Origin: a virus | IMG/VR virus record: IMGVR_UViG_3300031646_000017 | Coordinates: 1-25,487 of that record | Strand: one strand, 5' to 3' | Length of the DNA: 25,487 nucleotides | Shown: positions 8,865-16,007 of the stretch, piece by piece | How the letters are laid out: the number at the start of each line of letters is the position of its first letter | How positions within the stretch are numbered: the stretch's first letter is position 1 | Notes under the pieces: generated by a model | What the model saw: only the letters and a program-made list of their open reading frames with translations | Database searches by the model: none | What the model was told of the DNA's origin: nothing | Translations under genes and position numbers: made by a program

Positions 8865-9123
8865 ATCGTTTATTCTCCATTTCCCATGACGGCCAGCCCT
8901 CAATGATGCTGTCGAGCTTGGCGTTTAGTTCTTCTCTAGTCAGGCGTTCGCCCCCCTCATTAAAACGCAATGGATCATTGTCTGGCAACCTCGGCGTGGT
9001 ATCCAGCTCCTTGATCGCCCGTGCAATATCAGATCTCCAGTCAGCTGCATGTCCTGTCGCGTCCTCGAGTGGAAGCATCGACAGTCCTGCCAGCACTCGC
9101 ATCACATAGCTAACGTCTGCCAT
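8803..9123 (-). CDS. Hypothetical phage protein (105 aa)
   Basis: No family recognised. The N-terminus MADVSYVMRVLAGLSMLPLE is followed by a polar central part and LTREELNAKLDSIIEGWPSW. The C-terminal part, which overlaps the small terminase gene in another frame, is strongly basic (KTYPKYRPQTFKVRRG). The ATG at 9123 lies inside the last codons of the helicase gene (14-base overlap) with GGGGGAG just ahead. Position between helicase and small terminase suggests a link to replication or packaging, but this is context only. Confidence 0.65.
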   Translation of the reverse strand: MADVSYVMRVLAGLSMLPLEDATGHAADWRSDIARAIKELDTTPRLPDNDPLRFNEGGERLTREELNAKLDSIIEGWPSWEMENKRYVRSKTYPKYRPQTFKVRRG

Positions 9124-9994
9124 TGCTCCCCCAAGGATCAAAGTCAGGGTCAACCTCGGATACTCGCAACGTAGAGAAATCTATCTCGAGTGGGATACCA
9201 CCTTGGATCAATTCCCCGTGGCGATTCTTCAAGATCAGTAATTTGAAGTAGCCCTTCGAGCCTTCCCGGCGGACAGTCGTATGGTCGAGCCCCAAGACCA
9301 AATCAGAACTAGCTTCTACCACCATTCCGCCGTGTAAATTTTGGGCCACAGGAGGATTTTCAGACGTTGATCCTGTCCTGTTCCACTGACTCAACATCAG
9401 AACAGTGGACTCCGTCTCCATACAGAACCGCCTGAGCTCTGTCACCACACGCTGTGTCGATTCGTATATCGCTGCCTCGGTTCCGGCAGTAGCAAGCTGG
9501 AGATAGTCCAAGCAGAAAAACTTGCAGCCTTCCTCTGCACAGGATCGAGCGTAGGCTAGGATCTCTTCCCAGCTCATTAGTATTCCCTCGGGAACGTACA
9601 GTGCTGGAGCGTCTGCGAATGCTTGTTTGGTCACCGACCAAGCAAATTTGTTGAACCCACCAGGCTCAAGGTCGCGTAGTTTCTGACCGGTATAAATCGA
9701 ATACAACCTCGTACTCAACTGGATGTTCGTCTGCTCCAGGTTGATCATGCCGACCGAATGGCCTTGCTTCAGAGCTGCCGCACACATCGATAATGCGAGC
9801 GTAGTTTTTCCGATTCCGGGGTTTCCCGCCAGACAATTTAACCAAGGCCCACTGCCTTTTCTCATCCCCTGGTCGTGGCAGATTCGGTCCAAACTCGGAA
9901 GCCCAAAGCTGATGGAATGCACCTTGGGATTCTCCTGCAACTCCGCATATTCCTCTAGCCATTCATCGCCAAAGATGTTGACCTTCTTCATCAT
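9110..9994 (-). CDS. DnaB-like replicative helicase, RecA-fold domain only
   Basis: Hexameric helicase that would unwind phage DNA at the replication fork. Counting from the ATG at 9994: Walker A GNPGIGKTT (57-65), the glutamate of INLEQT (E87) in the position of the DnaB catalytic base, Walker B FFCLDYLQL (D163), the sensor LMLSQWNR (Q203), ASSDLVLGLDH and the arginine-finger segment LKNRHGE (R258). At 294 residues it has only the C-terminal motor; the N-terminal primase-binding domain of cellular DnaB is missing, as in several phage helicases. The chosen ATG forms an ATGA overlap with the stop of the RecE-like gene. No primase was seen nearby, so host primase is probably used. Confidence 0.9.
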   Translation of the reverse strand: MMKKVNIFGDEWLEEYAELQENPKVHSISFGLPSLDRICHDQGMRKGSGPWLNCLAGNPGIGKTTLALSMCAAALKQGHSVGMINLEQTNIQLSTRLYSIYTGQKLRDLEPGGFNKFAWSVTKQAFADAPALYVPEGILMSWEEILAYARSCAEEGCKFFCLDYLQLATAGTEAAIYESTQRVVTELRRFCMETESTVLMLSQWNRTGSTSENPPVAQNLHGGMVVEASSDLVLGLDHTTVRREGSKGYFKLLILKNRHGELIQGGIPLEIDFSTLRVSEVDPDFDPWGSNGRR

Positions 9995-10794
9995 CGCTGC
10001 GCCCAAACCGGCAAGTCAATCGTGTGTACCACCGGCTCATAGGCCGGCCACTCGCCATCGAGCCCGTACTGGTCGATGCATTCTGCCCACTGGTGAAGCA
10101 ATGCTTGCACCTCATGTTGACCCTGGCGCACAGCCGCATCACTCACCAGGTACACGGCCACAGCATAGGGTGGTTTCTTTTCACAGCATATCATGTAGAA
10201 TTTGTCGCGCTTCTCAAACGGAGACAGGTAATGGCCGGCCTGTCGGTAATAACCAAAATTGGCGATGGCTTTTGCCATGTGCTCTGGGCTGGCATCGATG
10301 GTCGATTTGAGGTCTACCAAGTAGCCATCATCGCCAGGCAAAGCATCGATCTTAGACTTGCATGAAATACCGCTGCCTTCGTCTGTCCACATCGCTACCA
10401 CCTCAGTCTTGGCACCCTCGAGCAGATCAGATGCCACCGGATGTGCCAAGACTGAATCACGCATCCGGCAGACAATGTCATAGTCGGCCGGCTTCAAGAT
10501 TTTCGCAGGAGTATACTGCATGGCGAGTTCCTTTTTCGCTGCCTTGCCTTCCTTGGTCGTAGCCTTCAGGTCAGAGCCTCGAGCCCAATGTTTCTCAAAC
10601 TTGTCGGCCTCTAGCGTAGCCACATGGAAGGCCGAGCCTAGCCTCATAGCCGGTGTGGCCGGAGAAGGGTTTTTGATCGCTTCCATTAAATGAGCTGGAC
10701 TGATTTTCAGCTTGCCAAGCAAACTGTTAGACGCGGATGGGTAGTTGAAATAGTCGGCGTCTGCCATGTCGTAGTGCAACTTTAAATCATTCAC
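9991..10794 (-). CDS. RecE-like exonuclease (PD-(D/E)XK fold)
   Basis: A 5'-3' double-strand exonuclease that makes single-stranded ends for the annealing protein. Visible motifs are MRLGSAFHVATLEA (about 50-63), KTEVVAMW (E131), CKSKIDALPGDD (D150) and YLVDLKSTIDAS (D161 and K163 as the D-x-K pair), then the tyrosine/glutamine helix FGYYRQAGHYL (180-190). The length of 267 fits the single-domain phage members of the exodeoxyribonuclease VIII-like group. The GTG start at 10794 overlaps the upstream stop (GTGA) and has GGTGG ahead. Its partner would be the Erf protein coded seven genes upstream in the same operon. Confidence 0.85.
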   Translation of the reverse strand: MNDLKLHYDMADADYFNYPSASNSLLGKLKISPAHLMEAIKNPSPATPAMRLGSAFHVATLEADKFEKHWARGSDLKATTKEGKAAKKELAMQYTPAKILKPADYDIVCRMRDSVLAHPVASDLLEGAKTEVVAMWTDEGSGISCKSKIDALPGDDGYLVDLKSTIDASPEHMAKAIANFGYYRQAGHYLSPFEKRDKFYMICCEKKPPYAVAVYLVSDAAVRQGQHEVQALLHQWAECIDQYGLDGEWPAYEPVVHTIDLPVWAQR

Positions 10795-11789
10795 TCTGCA
10801 CCACCTTTAGAGAGATAAACATAACCGCCTAGCTCACTTTTGAAATTGTAAAGATCTTCGATATGGCGTACAGAATCATGCCATTTACCGGTATAATCTA
10901 CGCTGAATCCATTGCCATCGAGCAACAATTTCTTCGGGTGCCTCTCTACTTGTTCCAAGAAGACATCTGGATCAAAAATCTCATTGGTATTGCTGACCTT
11001 AGTATTTCTATAATGCAGCAGATAATGAAAGGCACATAGATAGTTTCTTGTTCTCAGGTGCAGGTAAGCATTGCGGTGTAGCTTCCCCAGGGTTCTTTGT
11101 CTGGGCAATGCATCCAACACCTCTAACAAATAGTCTAACGTGCCAACACCTTTCGCCACGCTATCCATTTTTATGTCGCCACTCTTAAAAAGATCTGTGA
11201 GCAATGCACCGGCCTGTCCAGAGTTCCAAGGCAACGGAGTGTGCTTTATCAGGGCTGCTACCTCGATACTTTTTCTGCCACATAATAGGCCCAACACTGA
11301 GGTGAACCCTATTTTATAGCCATCGTTAGTATTCCTGGTAAGCCCAGCCTTATCTACTTTGTTGTTATACGATTCTAATAATCTGTTGAACTCAATGTAC
11401 TCTGAGATCCCATCCTTAACGTGTAAGTGTAGGTATTCAGGCAAAGTTAACGGCTTCTGATTTTGATTCAGCTGCCTTATGGTTTGAGTCGGAACAATAT
11501 TATCCGGGGTAACCACAAATGAAACCGGATACCCACCTCTCCTGGATGCTTCCAACCTATGTTGGCCGTCTAGGACTACCATGCCTGGAGTGACAATGAT
11601 AGGAACAAATTCATAGTGGCATTCGTTGAAGGACTTGAGGAGTCCCTTAACGTGTTCTTCGCTGATGCGCCGGTTACCCTCATGGTAGCTGAACAGATCA
11701 TAGTCTCGCGTCTGATAAATATATCCAATACGTTGGGCCTCTATGTAAACTCCTGTCCCCATTGTGCTTCTATCCATTTCGTAATTCAT
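10791..11789 (-). CDS. ParB/Srx-fold protein with DGQHR motif
   Basis: The N-terminal part has the ParB/sulfiredoxin fold signature: NRRISEEHVKGLLKSF, then PIIVTPGMVVLDGQHRLEAS (about 63-82), with DGQHR at 74-78 in the nucleotide-binding loop. The remaining ~230 residues are helical and polar without a ParB helix-turn-helix that I can identify, so this is not a standard partition protein. Phage proteins of this type are variously described as ParB-like nucleases or DGQHR proteins. It lies between the initiator-like and RecE-like genes with 4-base overlaps on both sides (ATGA and GTGA), suggesting a role in replication or DNA processing. The sequence of its gene looks more AT-rich than its neighbours. 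Confidence 0.78.
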   Translation of the reverse strand: MNYEMDRSTMGTGVYIEAQRIGYIYQTRDYDLFSYHEGNRRISEEHVKGLLKSFNECHYEFVPIIVTPGMVVLDGQHRLEASRRGGYPVSFVVTPDNIVPTQTIRQLNQNQKPLTLPEYLHLHVKDGISEYIEFNRLLESYNNKVDKAGLTRNTNDGYKIGFTSVLGLLCGRKSIEVAALIKHTPLPWNSGQAGALLTDLFKSGDIKMDSVAKGVGTLDYLLEVLDALPRQRTLGKLHRNAYLHLRTRNYLCAFHYLLHYRNTKVSNTNEIFDPDVFLEQVERHPKKLLLDGNGFSVDYTGKWHDSVRHIEDLYNFKSELGGYVYLSKGGAE

Positions 11790-12550
11790 TTTTCATCGCT
11801 CCATAGCTCTTTGAGGCTCACGCCTTGAGCTTGTTGTGGGTTGTAAGTGTTCTCCAGTGAGCGGAAGTACCAGGACTCTCGCCGCTCGGGACTGCCTAAA
11901 AAACTTTCCGGGTATTGATACTGTCTTTTACTGCTGTGAAATTCGCTGCCCTTCAAGCTCTTCAATATTCCACGAAAGAGCTGTAATGGATCTAAATCAC
12001 CATTCTTTAAATGCTCAGCATACAACGCATTCAGAACTCGGGCTCGCTTGTCTGTCAGGCTAGGGTGTGGCCCCTTCGGGCTCAGCTCCTCTAGCCAGAC
12101 CTGCCACATCTCAATCGAATGATCGATCCCGTTGGCCTTCGGCTGCTTCACTTTCGCTGTCGATTTCTGTTCAACTTTTGTATAACTAGCGATGCTTTGC
12201 CAGTGGTCGTAATTGATGACCTCGATCAACGTGCCGACATTCGACTGATCATGTGCAATGATCCGGATACGGCCGTCAGCTACCAACGTCTTCATCATCC
12301 GTTCGACCTTGCCTGGCGACCATTGCACCTTCCTGCCCCTCAAGCTGTAGGCACAGTCTCGGGCTATCGCTCGATAGCTTCTAAGGAACTGACCTCTTCC
12401 TACCTTCACGCCCGAATACTCGTAGCTCTTCTTGCCGAAGTTTGTCCTGAGCAGGATGAAGATCCAAAGTTTCAGCATATCCGGCTCACCGAAGATGCTC
12501 TTATCCAACAGATCTCTGCTGAGCAGGATGAAGCCAGGAGCTTTAGCCAT
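11786..12550 (-). CDS. Replisome-organiser-like initiator (phage O / DnaD-type)
   Basis: Likely binds the phage origin and loads the helicase. The N-terminus matches phage replisome organisers: GFILLSRDLLDKSIFGEPDM, LKLWIFILLRTNF, VGRGQFLRSYRAIARDC, then a winged-helix part WSPGKVERMMKTLVADGRIR and LIEVINYDHWQ (to about 120). A linker rich in K, S and T follows (about 125-142), then a helical C-terminal domain (WQVWLEELSP to GSLKELWSDE-like end) suited to contact the helicase. Length 254 is typical. It overlaps RusA by 8 bases and the ParB-like gene by 4. Origins often lie inside or beside such genes; I saw no obvious iterons within this one, while a repeat cluster lies at 7200-7357. Confidence 0.78.
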   Translation of the reverse strand: MAKAPGFILLSRDLLDKSIFGEPDMLKLWIFILLRTNFGKKSYEYSGVKVGRGQFLRSYRAIARDCAYSLRGRKVQWSPGKVERMMKTLVADGRIRIIAHDQSNVGTLIEVINYDHWQSIASYTKVEQKSTAKVKQPKANGIDHSIEMWQVWLEELSPKGPHPSLTDKRARVLNALYAEHLKNGDLDPLQLFRGILKSLKGSEFHSSKRQYQYPESFLGSPERRESWYFRSLENTYNPQQAQGVSLKELWSDEK

Positions 12551-12932
12551 GCTTGTGAACCCCGTAGCTAATCTCGACCCGGGGGTACTTCCGATCTATG
12601 CCCATATTTTCCCATTCTAACTTTTCTATCTGCTTATCATCGACATAGACAATGCCCTCAAGTGCGTCAGCAATTCCCTTCAGTAGGTTGTTAGGATCTC
12701 TCCTGCGCTTGTCTGGCATATAGAACGCCAGATGCATCCACACAGCACCTTCCGGATGCACAGGCCGACCTCGCACCTGAGTCATAGCCAACGTAGCGCA
12801 CAACTCTTTGCCCGTACGATAGCGCCTAGTGAGAACATGGGCCTTGCCACCAATGAATCGGCGATTGTCGGGAACTAATCCTTGCCACGGCAACACGATG
12901 TCGTAGGGGTAATCGCTACCCTTCTGTGCCAC
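12543..12932 (-). CDS. rusA: RusA-like Holliday junction resolvase
   Basis: Cuts four-way junctions made in recombination and replication, clearing branched DNA before packaging. The diagnostic block is present: YMPDKRRRDPNNLLKGIADA (71-90), followed by LEGIVYVDDKQIEKLEW. D79, N81/N82, K85, D89 and the D98-D99 pair match the acidic and basic residues needed for catalysis. Length of 129 residues is normal. The start is GTG at 12932 with AGAGG upstream, inside the end of the 85-aa gene (17-base overlap); no ATG lies near. It is flanked by genes for annealing and initiation, as in lambdoid-type recombination modules. Confidence 0.92.
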   Translation of the reverse strand: MAQKGSDYPYDIVLPWQGLVPDNRRFIGGKAHVLTRRYRTGKELCATLAMTQVRGRPVHPEGAVWMHLAFYMPDKRRRDPNNLLKGIADALEGIVYVDDKQIEKLEWENMGIDRKYPRVEISYGVHKHG

Positions 12933-13173
12933 GATGCCTCTGCTGCTCCAGTTGTCGCCTGGCCTCGATTAAGGCGCCCTCGGCTTGCAATAGATGGTTG
13001 CGAGCCCTCTCCAGGTAGCCCTGGCCGGCCTCGTTCACGATGTCCCAAGGCACGTTCCCCAACTTCGCTCTCAACCTCTCTGAATCCCTCCCAACTACAC
13101 CGAGAATTGCAGCACAATCCTCAAGTAGCTGGCCGTGGTCGAGCTTCAATCTGCTCGTTGTTTTACTCGCCAT
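12916..13173 (-). CDS. Small helical hypothetical protein (85 aa)
   Basis: Not recognised. It is helical, with a C-terminal half suited to a coiled coil (YLERARNHLLQAEGALIEAR then RQLEQQRHRG). The N-terminus MASKTTSRLKLDHGQLLEDC leads into a segment (GRDSERLRAKLGNVPWDIVN) that could be a small DNA- or protein-binding unit. Its ATG shares one base with the preceding stop (TAATG), so it is translated with the SSB-like gene. The start of the next gene, RusA, lies inside its end. Confidence 0.65.
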   Translation of the reverse strand: MASKTTSRLKLDHGQLLEDCAAILGVVGRDSERLRAKLGNVPWDIVNEAGQGYLERARNHLLQAEGALIEARRQLEQQRHRGTEG

Positions 13174-13439
13174 TAGAACGGCAAGTCATCCGAGTCAGTC
13201 GGTTTCGCTGACTGATAGGTGTTCACCTCAAGGTAAAGAGGTGGAGATTCGAGGTTTTTCCCGTCATAAATCTTGACATCAATCTTGACCATCTCCTGGT
13301 CAGATTTTTTAGCTAAAAATTCCGTCAACTGCTCTGGGTATAACCGCAACGTGCAGCAGATAAAATGTTGAGCCTTCTCTGGAGGTGCTGACACAGTCAA
13401 TCCGTGCGAGCGATTCACAAATTCTTTGTTGCTCGGCAT
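13173..13439 (-). CDS. Small protein with SSB-type acidic C-terminal tip (88 aa)
   Basis: The last residues are PTDSDDLPF, the acidic tip with terminal phenylalanine by which bacterial single-strand-binding proteins recruit partners. The body has alternating beta-like segments (HGLTVSAPP, FICCTLRLYP, VKIDVKIYDG, LYLEVNTYQ), which would fit a small OB-like fold, although no SSB family motif is evident and 88 residues is shorter than a usual SSB. The ATG at 13439 has AAGGA seven bases upstream; a longer frame exists upstream but lacks a good site. Being in a cluster with Erf, RusA and helicase supports a single-strand-binding or partner-recruiting role. This is inferred, not certain. Confidence 0.65.
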   Translation of the reverse strand: MPSNKEFVNRSHGLTVSAPPEKAQHFICCTLRLYPEQLTEFLAKKSDQEMVKIDVKIYDGKNLESPPLYLEVNTYQSAKPTDSDDLPF

Positions 13440-13452
13440 TATTTTTCCTTGG

Positions 13453-13806
13453 TTAAATGATGCGCCACATTTTGGCACGGCGACCACTGCGAGTTACGGC
13501 ACTCTGGTCGGACATCTCGATTAAGTTCATCCTTCTCAATTCTGGCAACCGGCGATTAGCTGTAGCGTGTCGCCATCCTAATGCTTCATCAATAGCGTCA
13601 CCGGTGGACGCCCCGTGCTCCTCTAGGTATCTCAAGATCATACCTCGATGTGTACCAGCGGCAACGTGCATAGACCTGGCTGCCTCATGTGAGGTGTCCG
13701 GGTCCGAGGACCGAGCTCTAGGCGAGACGCCAAACAATGATTCCTGGTTGGGATCATGCGCCTTCTCTTTTCGTTTCGGCTCTCCCTCAAAGTCGATTTC
13801 ATCCAT
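13453..13806 (-). CDS. Winged-helix DNA-binding protein (117 aa)
   Basis: Likely a regulator or replication accessory. After a charged N-terminus comes ARSSDPDTSHEAARSMHVAA (about 31-50), a motif common in phage proteins with a C-terminal winged helix. The winged helix is then visible as MILRYLEEHGASTGDAIDEA, LGWRHATANRRLPELRRMNL and IEMSDQSAVTRSGRRAKMWR (about 56-115), giving the usual helix-helix-recognition helix-wing order. I chose the ATG at 13806 with AGGA ahead; a GTG at 13824 overlapping the Erf stop (GTGA) would add six residues. It sits between Erf and the SSB-like gene. Confidence 0.75.
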   Translation of the reverse strand: MDEIDFEGEPKRKEKAHDPNQESLFGVSPRARSSDPDTSHEAARSMHVAAGTHRGMILRYLEEHGASTGDAIDEALGWRHATANRRLPELRRMNLIEMSDQSAVTRSGRRAKMWRII

Positions 13807-13820
13807 GCCCGTCCTGCGCC

Positions 13821-14534
13821 TCACTTGGGCGTGTCCTTTATGGCTGACTCCAAATAATCGATGGCGGCCGAGGTGAACTCTAGGGCCGACCGATCCCGGT
13901 CACCTTTCCCACCTTTCTCTAGCACGTTCTTGGCCAGGTCAATGGCCTTGGCATCCACGTTGCCATTCTCCTCAGCTGCATCGATAAGATCTTTCAGTAC
14001 CGACAACTCTGATTTCAGCAGGATAGGATCATCAACTTTTTCTTCTTTCGGCTCGAAGGCTGGAGTAGCTTTCTTCGGAGCTACCCTTTTCTTAGGAGCC
14101 TTCTTCGGAGCTTGGGCCGTGGCCTCATTGCCATCATCATCATCGCTTAGACCAACAGAGATCCCGAGAGCTGCTTGCGTGGTATATCTCCGTAGATAGC
14201 TGATGGCTGAACCGAAGCCGTGAGCTGTCTGGGCGGCGAGTGGAATGGAAGCCGGTGGAAGTAATATCCATTCACCACTTTCGTGAATGAGCATGGTCGT
14301 CATCGTGACTCGACCCTCTGCCTCTCCAGGAAACTGTGTCAGGGCTAGGCCGTGTTTCGCCAGGGCTGGCTTCGACACCTCAAGGACAGCAGACAGATCT
14401 GCGTACTGAGATTTGAAGTGCGAATTTTTCTGATTCATTAGAGCTGTGCCGACATCTGCCTGGGCTCCAACCAACGCCTTGCAAATACTGCCAATACTTT
14501 CGCTCATTAAAACGCTAGGTTGCGTATCATCCAT
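13821..14534 (-). CDS. erf: Erf-family single-strand annealing protein
   Basis: Anneals complementary single strands, pairing with the RecE-like exonuclease to circularise or recombine phage DNA. The ERF signature is clear: IGSICKALVGAQADVGTALM, NSHFKSQYADLSAVLEV, ALAKHGLALTQFPGEAEGRV, TTMLIHESGEWILLPPASIP and GSAISYLRRYTTQAALGIS, ending in the DDDDG turn (to about 135). A lysine/alanine/proline-rich linker follows (about 141-165, repeating APKK), then a helical C-terminal part to residue 237. The ATG at 14534 has AGGAG six bases upstream and overlaps the repressor-like gene by 8 bases. Confidence 0.92.
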   Translation of the reverse strand: MDDTQPSVLMSESIGSICKALVGAQADVGTALMNQKNSHFKSQYADLSAVLEVSKPALAKHGLALTQFPGEAEGRVTMTTMLIHESGEWILLPPASIPLAAQTAHGFGSAISYLRRYTTQAALGISVGLSDDDDGNEATAQAPKKAPKKRVAPKKATPAFEPKEEKVDDPILLKSELSVLKDLIDAAEENGNVDAKAIDLAKNVLEKGGKGDRDRSALEFTSAAIDYLESAIKDTPK

Positions 14535-14781
14535 GCTCTACTCCTGTGGGTAGTGAGGTTTCATTTCTCTCGAGTGCTGCTAAGGCCGGAGACAACATCT
14601 TCCGATAAACCTTCGGGATCTTATTGTCACCTCGTAGCCATTTGTAGACACTCGAGTGTCCAGCAAATAAAAATTCTTCTGCGTACTGTTCGACTGATCT
14701 GCCGTCCAGCTCAATGGCACGATGTAATTTTTCACACGCCCAGTCAGCAGCGTATGGTCCTGACCTGACAACATTTGCCAT
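14527..14781 (-). CDS. Cro/cI-like helix-turn-helix regulator (84 aa)
   Basis: Small DNA-binding protein, probably acting on the palindromes just upstream. Residues about 28-62 form an XRE-type helix-turn-helix: RSVEQYAEEFLFAGHSSVYK, with recognition helix SSVYKWLRG (43-51), then NKIPKVYRKML. No peptidase or dimerisation domain is present, so by size it is Cro-like rather than LexA-like. It is the first gene of the replication operon. The ATG at 14779-14781 has AAGGGG nearby, part of which can be hidden in a hairpin with CCTTG (14790-14794 with 14802-14806). Autoregulation through the operators at 14917-14982 is likely, by analogy with lambdoid phages. Confidence 0.8.
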   Translation of the reverse strand: MANVVRSGPYAADWACEKLHRAIELDGRSVEQYAEEFLFAGHSSVYKWLRGDNKIPKVYRKMLSPALAALERNETSLPTGVEHG

Positions 14782-14787
14782 GAATGG

Positions 14788-14895
14788 CCCCTTGTTTAAG
14801 TCAAGGTGGTACGGCCAAGTCTAGAACTCTTATCACTTGTACTCTGACGTCCCTTGCGAGCACTTACTTTGCGTGGGATAAGCGGCCGTACCACC
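14788..14895 (-). promoter_or_regulatory. Structured leader ahead of the helix-turn-helix gene
   Basis: A 12-base perfect inverted repeat, GGTGGTACGGCC at 14805-14816 and GGCCGTACCACC at 14884-14895, encloses 67 bases with a second pair, CTTATC 14829-14834 and GATAAG 14877-14882. A third small hairpin (14790-14794 with 14802-14806) covers part of the ribosome site. All lie in the roughly 140-base leader expected from the minus-strand promoter, so they could control translation or read-through of the regulator transcript. Confidence 0.5.
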
Positions 14896-14916
14896 AAATC
14901 TTATATTTTTTCTCTG

Positions 14917-14982
14917 TGTCCAGCTACAGCATACAACCAAAGTTTTCCAATAGCAAATGTCCAGCGACAATGTCCCTAGACA
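14917..14982. promoter_or_regulatory. Operator-like sites and minus-strand promoter of the replication operon
   Basis: Two exact TGTC-N4-GACA palindromes lie 13 bases apart, TGTCCAGCGACA (14958-14969) and TGTCCCTAGACA (14971-14982). A degenerate copy, TGTCCAGCTACA, is at 14917-14928. Between them on the minus strand is TTGCTA (complement of 14951-14956), a 17-base spacer and TATGCT (complement of 14928-14933), each 4 of 6 to consensus. The strong sites sit just upstream of -35 and the weak one at the start point, an arrangement suited to both activation and repression. Confidence 0.6.
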
Positions 14983-15013
14983 GATAGCGAAAACATCCTA
15001 TGTATATGAGGGC

Positions 15014-15057
15014 TTGCATTTCCCTGTGTATCGGGTTTATATTGTCCGTAGACAATA
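15014..15057 (+). promoter_or_regulatory. Plus-strand promoter overlapped by an 18-bp operator palindrome
   Basis: TTGCAT (15014-15019) and TATATT (15038-15043, 5 of 6 to consensus) are spaced by 18 bases. The perfect palindrome TATTGTC-CGTA-GACAATA (15040-15057) covers the -10 box and start point and has the same TGTC-N4-GACA core as the sites at 14958-14982. A bound dimer should block this promoter. The first gene begins 35 bases farther on, with AGAGGA at about 15080 as ribosome site. Confidence 0.6.
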
Positions 15058-15091
15058 ACCTACAGACCGAACTACTAGAAGAGGAAAACTA

Positions 15092-15448
15092 ATGGAAAGT
15101 AACCTGTGGAGGTTCGTCCCAGCGGAAGCAGAGCTTCATGCTAAAGAGTCAGAGATGATGTACAAGAGAGCATTGATCGCCCAAGAAAGGGCTGAAGCTT
15201 TTCTAGCACAAGGCGATAAGGAAAGTGCTTCTAGGCTTTGTACTCATGGTTGGCTCAACCAAGACATATTGAGCGAAATTGATTACTCTGATTTGAACTA
15301 CGAGCAGTGCAAAAATTGTGGCAGTGTACTCGATGGTGAGCCAGCCTCGTTAGGTGGTAGTGGCAAAGTGGTAGAGCCTTGTGCCGTTGAAGGAGAGTGG
15401 AGTCCACTATATCTCAAAAACTATAGCTTAAAAAGAGAGGGAAAATGA
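15092..15448 (+). CDS. Unrecognised protein with CxxC motif, first gene of plus-strand operon (118 aa)
   Basis: No family recognised. The N-terminal half is helical and charged (AEAELHAKESEMMYKRALIA, then QERAEAFLAQGDKESASRL). The C-terminal half has CKNCGSVLDG and further single cysteines (RLCTHGW, VEPCAVEG) that could bind one metal ion. The ATG has a GAGG site 7 bases upstream. It is the only transcription unit on the plus strand and is fed by the operator-covered promoter at 15014-15057, so its expression should be opposed to that of the replication operon or shut off by the nearby regulator. Its stop overlaps the next start (ATGA). No helix-turn-helix is visible, so it is not an obvious cI repressor. 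Confidence 0.72.
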   Translation: MESNLWRFVPAEAELHAKESEMMYKRALIAQERAEAFLAQGDKESASRLCTHGWLNQDILSEIDYSDLNYEQCKNCGSVLDGEPASLGGSGKVVEPCAVEGEWSPLYLKNYSLKREGK

Positions 15449-15567
15449 CACCCACTGACCCTATCATCCATGCTCTAGCGTGGGGACTCATAGGTGGTCT
15501 TTTAGGCACCATTGTGATCGTTCTGGCTTACGATTGCATCCGGACGATCATCGGATGGTTCAAATGA
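15445..15567 (+). CDS. Small single-pass membrane protein (40 aa)
   Basis: This very short frame encodes MTPTDPIIHALAWGLIGGLL followed by GTIVIVLAYDCIRTIIGWFK, that is, one clear membrane helix (about residues 9-28) with a short polar start and a basic end. Its ATG overlaps the stop of the 118-aa gene (ATGA), its TGA overlaps the start of the 147-aa gene (ATGA), and GAGAGGG lies about 5 bases upstream. The exact coupling at both ends makes it credible. Small membrane proteins in such positions of temperate phages can act in superinfection exclusion or host-membrane signalling; that is inference. Confidence 0.75.
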   Translation: MTPTDPIIHALAWGLIGGLLGTIVIVLAYDCIRTIIGWFK

Positions 15568-16007
15568 GTGAAAAAAAATATACTGTAATCGAGACGGATA
15601 CAGATGGATACAAAAGATCTTACGAATGGACGGCCGTGGAGATTCTCGAAAGGATGGAGAAAGAGGTGGGCATTACCCATCTTGAATACGATTGCTGGCA
15701 ACAAAGCTGGAATGGACTGATGGAGTGCGATTGGCAGTCAATCCCAGAACTTGTCGCAGACAACAGAGAGAACAGGGCGATGAAGTTGTTCAAGGAAATG
15801 AAGCAAGAGATGGCTGAGGACTTGGCTAAATTAGTGGAGGAGCAAGACTTCGCTAGGAGACAACTACAACATTACGCAGCACAGATGCTTGAGTTTGAAA
15901 TTCTCACCAGAGATCCCCAAGAGGCTAAAGAGGCTATTACCCGTGAACGTATTCAGGTGGTATTCGGAGACACCCCATCGGGAGAGGAATCCGAAGTCAT
16001 TTCGTAA
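15564..16007 (+). CDS. Unrecognised acidic helical protein, last gene of plus-strand operon (147 aa)
   Basis: No family recognised. The start MSEKKYTVIETDTDGYKRSY looks like two short beta strands. A tryptophan-rich part follows (HLEYDCWQQSWNGLMECDWQ, about 45-64) and then a long helical, coiled-coil-like stretch (about 75-125, with FKEMKQEMAEDLAKLVEEQD) and an acidic, disordered-looking tail. The ATG at 15564 overlaps the stop of the membrane-protein gene (ATGA); a longer frame from 15480 would run across that gene and has no separate support. Its end overlaps the convergent spanin-like gene by 11 bases, leaving no room for a terminator between them. Confidence 0.72.
   Translation: MSEKKYTVIETDTDGYKRSYEWTAVEILERMEKEVGITHLEYDCWQQSWNGLMECDWQSIPELVADNRENRAMKLFKEMKQEMAEDLAKLVEEQDFARRQLQHYAAQMLEFEILTRDPQEAKEAITRERIQVVFGDTPSGEESEVIS

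Follow-up and report, generated by a model that had tools for sequence, protein, structure and literature searches.

How does a phage govern two divergent operons from one short control region when a single small regulator gene lies beside it? This question is raised by virus record IMGVR_UViG_3300031646_000017, whose entire 25,487 bp make up the window analyzed here. The original prediction, made from the letters of this DNA alone, described palindromic operators in a lambda-like layout and read them as an immunity switch with only one regulator coded next to it. Our answer is that this is a real, conserved bidirectional operator region, probably served by a single regulator, and that the immunity reading is unsupported. 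The window may be a fragment, as may the records of its relatives, and its best explanation is an uncultured tailed phage. Most genes lie on the minus strand, including those for the regulator, ERF, RusA, a DnaD-like loader, a DnaB-like helicase, terminase, and structural and lysis functions. Downstream of the regulator, a replication/recombination operon recognized by PHROG and Pfam matches (9110–14534, minus strand) encodes an ERF annealing protein, RusA, the DnaD-like loader, a ParB-like protein, a PDDEXK-like protein and the DnaB-like helicase, and the order of most of these genes is kept in the IMG/VR relatives; the ParB-like protein (10791–11789) has no counterpart in the relatives compared. 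On the plus strand, a cassette of unassigned function (15092–16007; open reading frames 15092–15448, 15445–15567 and 15564–16007) separates the control region from the lysis genes, its 3' end overlapping a convergent lysis-side gene.

Are the palindromes more than coincidence? Exact copies of TGTC-N4-GACA are found at 14958–14969 (TGTCCAGCGACA), 14971–14982 (TGTCCCTAGACA) and 15043–15054 (TGTCCGTAGACA), as predicted, and they are the only exact matches in the record, so the motif is not one that recurs with similar frequency elsewhere in it. Their clustering is far above chance: order-2 simulations gave an expectation of 0.31 exact sites per window and never placed three within 141 bp (0 of 300), local simulations produced even two exact sites in none of 20,000 trials, and when all 256 half-sites were scanned with spacers of 0–15, three copies within 141 bp occurred for TGTC with a spacer of 4 only. 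The first two sites, 13 bp apart from centre to centre, together form a 25-bp element, TGTC-N17-GACA, that is present as a single copy in the window contig. A degenerate fourth site had also been proposed at 14917–14928 (TGTCCAGCTACA), adjoining the minus -10; the one-mismatch sequence is there, but as an operator it is doubtful: the nearest relative lacks an equivalent, and we set the site aside because it is not conserved.

The sites lie at defined places relative to two proposed promoters. The minus-strand promoter (14928–14956) would consist of a -35 element TTGCTA (14956–14951), a spacer of 17 and a -10 element TATGCT (14933–14928), and the plus-strand promoter (15014–15043) of TTGCAT (15014–15019), a spacer of 18 and TATATT (15038–15043). 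Both match the consensus at about 8 of 12 positions, which is under the threshold of our consensus scan, so neither was listed; the two divergent promoter-like elements are better backed by their conserved position than by their sequence. The TTG of the minus -35 is kept in all seven contigs compared (the window and six relatives), 0–1 bp from the tandem element. In the nearest relative (L004), the plus promoter has an identical -10 and a nearly identical -35, and the other relatives carry a -10-like hexamer beside the single palindrome. The geometry originally described was borne out in the window, where the tandem sites end 1 bp before the minus -35 and the single site overlaps the plus -10 by one base, the last of that hexamer. 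Taking the hexamers as correct, the tandem site nearer the minus promoter (14958–14969) has its centre at about -42.5 and the farther one (14971–14982) at about -55.5, and in the plus promoter the start region, from about -7 to +5, lies under the single site. Tandem sites beside a weak -35 suggest activation, and a site at the plus start suggests repression, both judged from position.

Comparison with relatives makes a divergent control region with genuine operators a well-supported reading of the sequence. The regulator was found in eight further IMG/VR contigs, and its orthologs, 32–87% identical, precede the ERF gene in relatives. A common anatomy is found in the window and in the six uncultured relatives whose 84-aa protein is at least 41% identical: the 25-bp tandem element, with inner half-sites partly kept, occupies the same place and comes within 0–1 bp of the -35 proposed for the regulator/replication operon, and the divergent operon has one palindrome where its -10/start is proposed. 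The nearest relative has all three exact sites with the same spacing, and there the core bases are identical to those of the window at 24 of 24 positions versus 76 of 96 for the other control-region bases (Fisher p 0.007). In three further relatives (L005–L007) a single exact palindrome stands at the divergent promoter, and the inner half-sites of the tandem element are degenerate. The remaining two (L011 and L012), with regulators about 42% identical, keep TGTC-N17-GACA, and their single site at the divergent promoter reads TGGC-N4-GCCA in L011 and TGTC-N4-GACA in L012. The distance from the single to the tandem site differs across contigs (78.5, 79.5, 102.5 and 137.5 bp). Since the relatives share ancestry, this conservation amounts to fewer than seven independent cases.

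How specific is this anatomy? Six of the seven contigs have a single TGTC-N17-GACA and the other, G008, has two, one copy always being at this locus. Beyond the sites described, the contigs hold few copies of TGTC-N4-GACA (an additional one each in G008 and G009). Where the regulator is most diverged (L009 and L010, 32% identity) the tandem element is absent, a weak test given so few cases. A search of 1.12 Mb of other loci did not find the composite of the 25-bp element with its adjacent TTG. An IMG/VR scan with this composite returned 27 contigs, five of which are known relatives; we treat the matches in the other 22, most of them within long open frames, as chance because none of these contigs encodes a regulator ortholog.

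Which protein, then, would read these sites? The first gene of the replication operon (14527–14781, minus strand) encodes a small protein of 84 aa, the proposed regulator, described in the original prediction as a helix-turn-helix protein. Its place stands, but its proposed helix-turn-helix identity comes from a predicted fold of moderate confidence and not from a curated family. The protein has no match above cut-off in Pfam, PHROG or NCBIfam, the PF01381 profile has no match in eight contigs, neither tblastn against annotated phages nor a regulator-family scan of 84,980 bacterial and archaeal species genomes found a relative, and a PDB sequence search with the family profile returned spurious TPR matches only. 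The AlphaFold model has four helices (pLDDT 73.8, pTM 0.56), and its best PDB fold matches are XRE-type regulators such as C.AhdI, Aca7, HigA2 and lambda CI, and no match reaches an E-value below 0.001; Foldseek ranks C.AhdI first, its best E of 0.15 not being significant, and VIA-align gives Z scores of up to 8.0 (Aca7). By predicted fold the protein looks XRE/Cro-CI-like, and gene neighbourhood, fold and co-occurrence together make it probably the binder of the sites. No second regulator was seen beside the region in the relatives examined, in keeping with the single regulator of the original prediction, with the caveat that the profiles miss even the 84-aa protein.

We infer the following mechanism, to which we assign a probability of roughly 55%, from binding through the sign of regulation at each promoter to the timing. 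The 84-aa protein, first product of the minus operon, would bind TGTC-N4-GACA as a dimer at all three sites. With dimers side by side on the 25-bp element, centred at about -42.5 and about -55.5, it would activate its own operon, and with a further dimer on the single site, centred at about -1, it would block the promoter of the divergent cassette; as the protein accumulates, transcription would move from the cassette to replication. In favor of this mechanism, the tandem element accompanies orthologs at least 41% identical and is missing in L009. Against it, an offset of 13 bp would pack two dimers closely and turn them about 86 degrees from each other around the helix, the fold model is moderate, the promoters are weak by consensus and the single-to-tandem spacing is variable. 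The tandem sites could also mediate repression instead.

That last point is the core of the rival that survives best, one that we regard as possible but doubtful: a Cro- or Aca-like autorepressor, in which the 84-aa protein, acting at the same sites, would repress both operons and damp early transcription in both directions. Autorepression is common among small phage helix-turn-helix proteins, and the evidence from sites and fold applies equally well to it. The degenerate site beside the minus -10 would fit such a protein in the window contig, but that site is not conserved, and in seven contigs the tandem element ends 0–1 bp before the -35, leaving the promoter elements uncovered in a position typical of activators.

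The layout also recalls that of lambda OR, and an operator beside one -35 with another over the opposing promoter is a part of the original prediction that holds; its reading as an immunity switch is not supported. A temperate phage whose second regulator or integrase is missing from the contig is, in our estimation, quite unlikely. Tyrosine integrase (PF00589) was sought in the window and ten related contigs, serine resolvase (PF00239) in the window and six of those ten, and neither turned up; the genome scan gave no relative of the regulator, and the divergent cassette varies, with no regulator beside the region. Together with the absence of a second regulator, these results leave the immunity switch unsupported; since the records may be fragments, lysogeny keeps a small probability. 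One observation on its side is a Sphingobium faniae contig (L127) with prophage-like structural genes, helix-turn-helix genes and a terminase 40% identical to that of the window, but within the set this locus matched just the terminase and a single small protein. For a non-lysogenic lineage, we tentatively suggest that a single dual-action controller, akin to those of restriction systems, could serve as an infection-stage switch, turning on the replication operon and simultaneously silencing an exchangeable cassette.

The cassette appears exchangeable, and no repressor was seen in the cassettes of the relatives examined. Its open reading frames in the window belong to no Pfam or PHROG families, gave no useful match with PADLOC and NCBIfam, and have no counterpart in the relatives compared, and its contents vary from these unassigned genes to a methyltransferase in G002 and a helicase in G005. 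The G002 cassette (L117:13829–16223) holds a C5 DNA methyltransferase and two other genes, and that of L009 a large helicase gene. On the lysis side of G002, an 84-aa winged-helix-turn-helix protein (L117:13451–13705) adjoins a phosphoesterase-like open reading frame.

The 5' leader of the regulator has features of its own. At 14805–14895 it contains a perfect 12-bp inverted repeat (GGTGGTACGGCC/GGCCGTACCACC) with its arms 67 bp apart. The stretch of about 110 bp that holds the repeat is absent from L004, which suggests an insertion. An Rfam search of 14500–15200 found no match, and RNA folding of the leader (z -1.58) revealed nothing notable past the 12-bp stem. A DNA search with the repeat matched 15 IMG/VR stretches and nothing in annotated phages. 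In L012, a leader insertion of about 300 bp (L012:9446–9754) with a possible 102-aa open reading frame lies between the tandem element and the regulator.

Could something other than the 84-aa protein occupy the sites? A regulator of the host, such as a LexA-type repressor, or a different phage protein might bind them instead; LexA motifs do vary among bacterial groups (PMC8565304). We consider this very improbable: the motifs described there are different ones, and the complete set of sites occurs only in contigs that have the 84-aa gene and is missing where the protein is most diverged. Least probable of all, to the point of being hardly credible, is that the repeats are iterons of a replication origin instead of transcriptional operators; they do adjoin the replication operon, but there are only three of them and their places are fixed relative to the -35 and -10 elements.

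What does the locus offer? To a phage group with a regulator that drew no relative from the annotated phages searched, it brings an operator code that is both defined and conserved, in a control region probably run by one protein. It would provide a testable case of a dual activator-repressor that decides whether an accessory cassette or replication is favoured, with no evidence of lysogeny, and it is a point at which accessory genes are swapped while the operator-promoter unit in front of them stays constant.

Among known systems, the nearest described analogue appears to be the restriction-modification controller C.Esp1396I, followed by lambda CI at OR2. In the Esp1396I system, the controller binds tandem operators, OL and OR, at its own promoter, first activating and then repressing, and also binds a single operator, OM, where the M gene starts (PMC4041747). 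The present protein resembles this controller in being small and, by predicted fold, of XRE type, and its sites in the arrangement of tandem operators at its own operon's promoter plus one at the start of a second promoter (PMC4041747). Unlike in that system, the promoters here are divergent and adjacent, the tandem centres are 13 bp apart and neither site reaches the -35, the half-site has the sequence TGTC and the gene for the protein comes first in a phage replication operon. One trait of C-protein systems, tandem operators that precede the regulator's own promoter, is present in seven contigs; another, linkage to restriction endonuclease and methyltransferase genes, was not found beside the region in the window by Pfam or PHROG, and the C5 methyltransferase in the divergent cassette of G002 is given no weight because the other relatives do not share it.

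At lambda OR, between PRM and PR, one operator is centred near -42 of one promoter and another covers the divergent promoter. An operator near -42, another over a divergent promoter and a Cro-CI-like predicted fold are all likenesses to the window; unlike lambda, the region here has only one regulator for its three sites, and the gene for it belongs to the replication operon; neither an integrase nor an immunity gene was found, and site spacing and sequence differ. Anti-CRISPR-associated (Aca) proteins are small phage helix-turn-helix autorepressors with palindromic operators at their own promoters. Our proposed regulator is likewise a small phage protein with palindromic sites at its own promoter and a similar predicted structure, but it heads a replication operon instead of an anti-CRISPR operon and has a second operator on a divergent promoter. 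Set beside these systems, the control region is ordinary in kind; it is the spacing of its tandem sites and its place in the replication operon that make it unusual.
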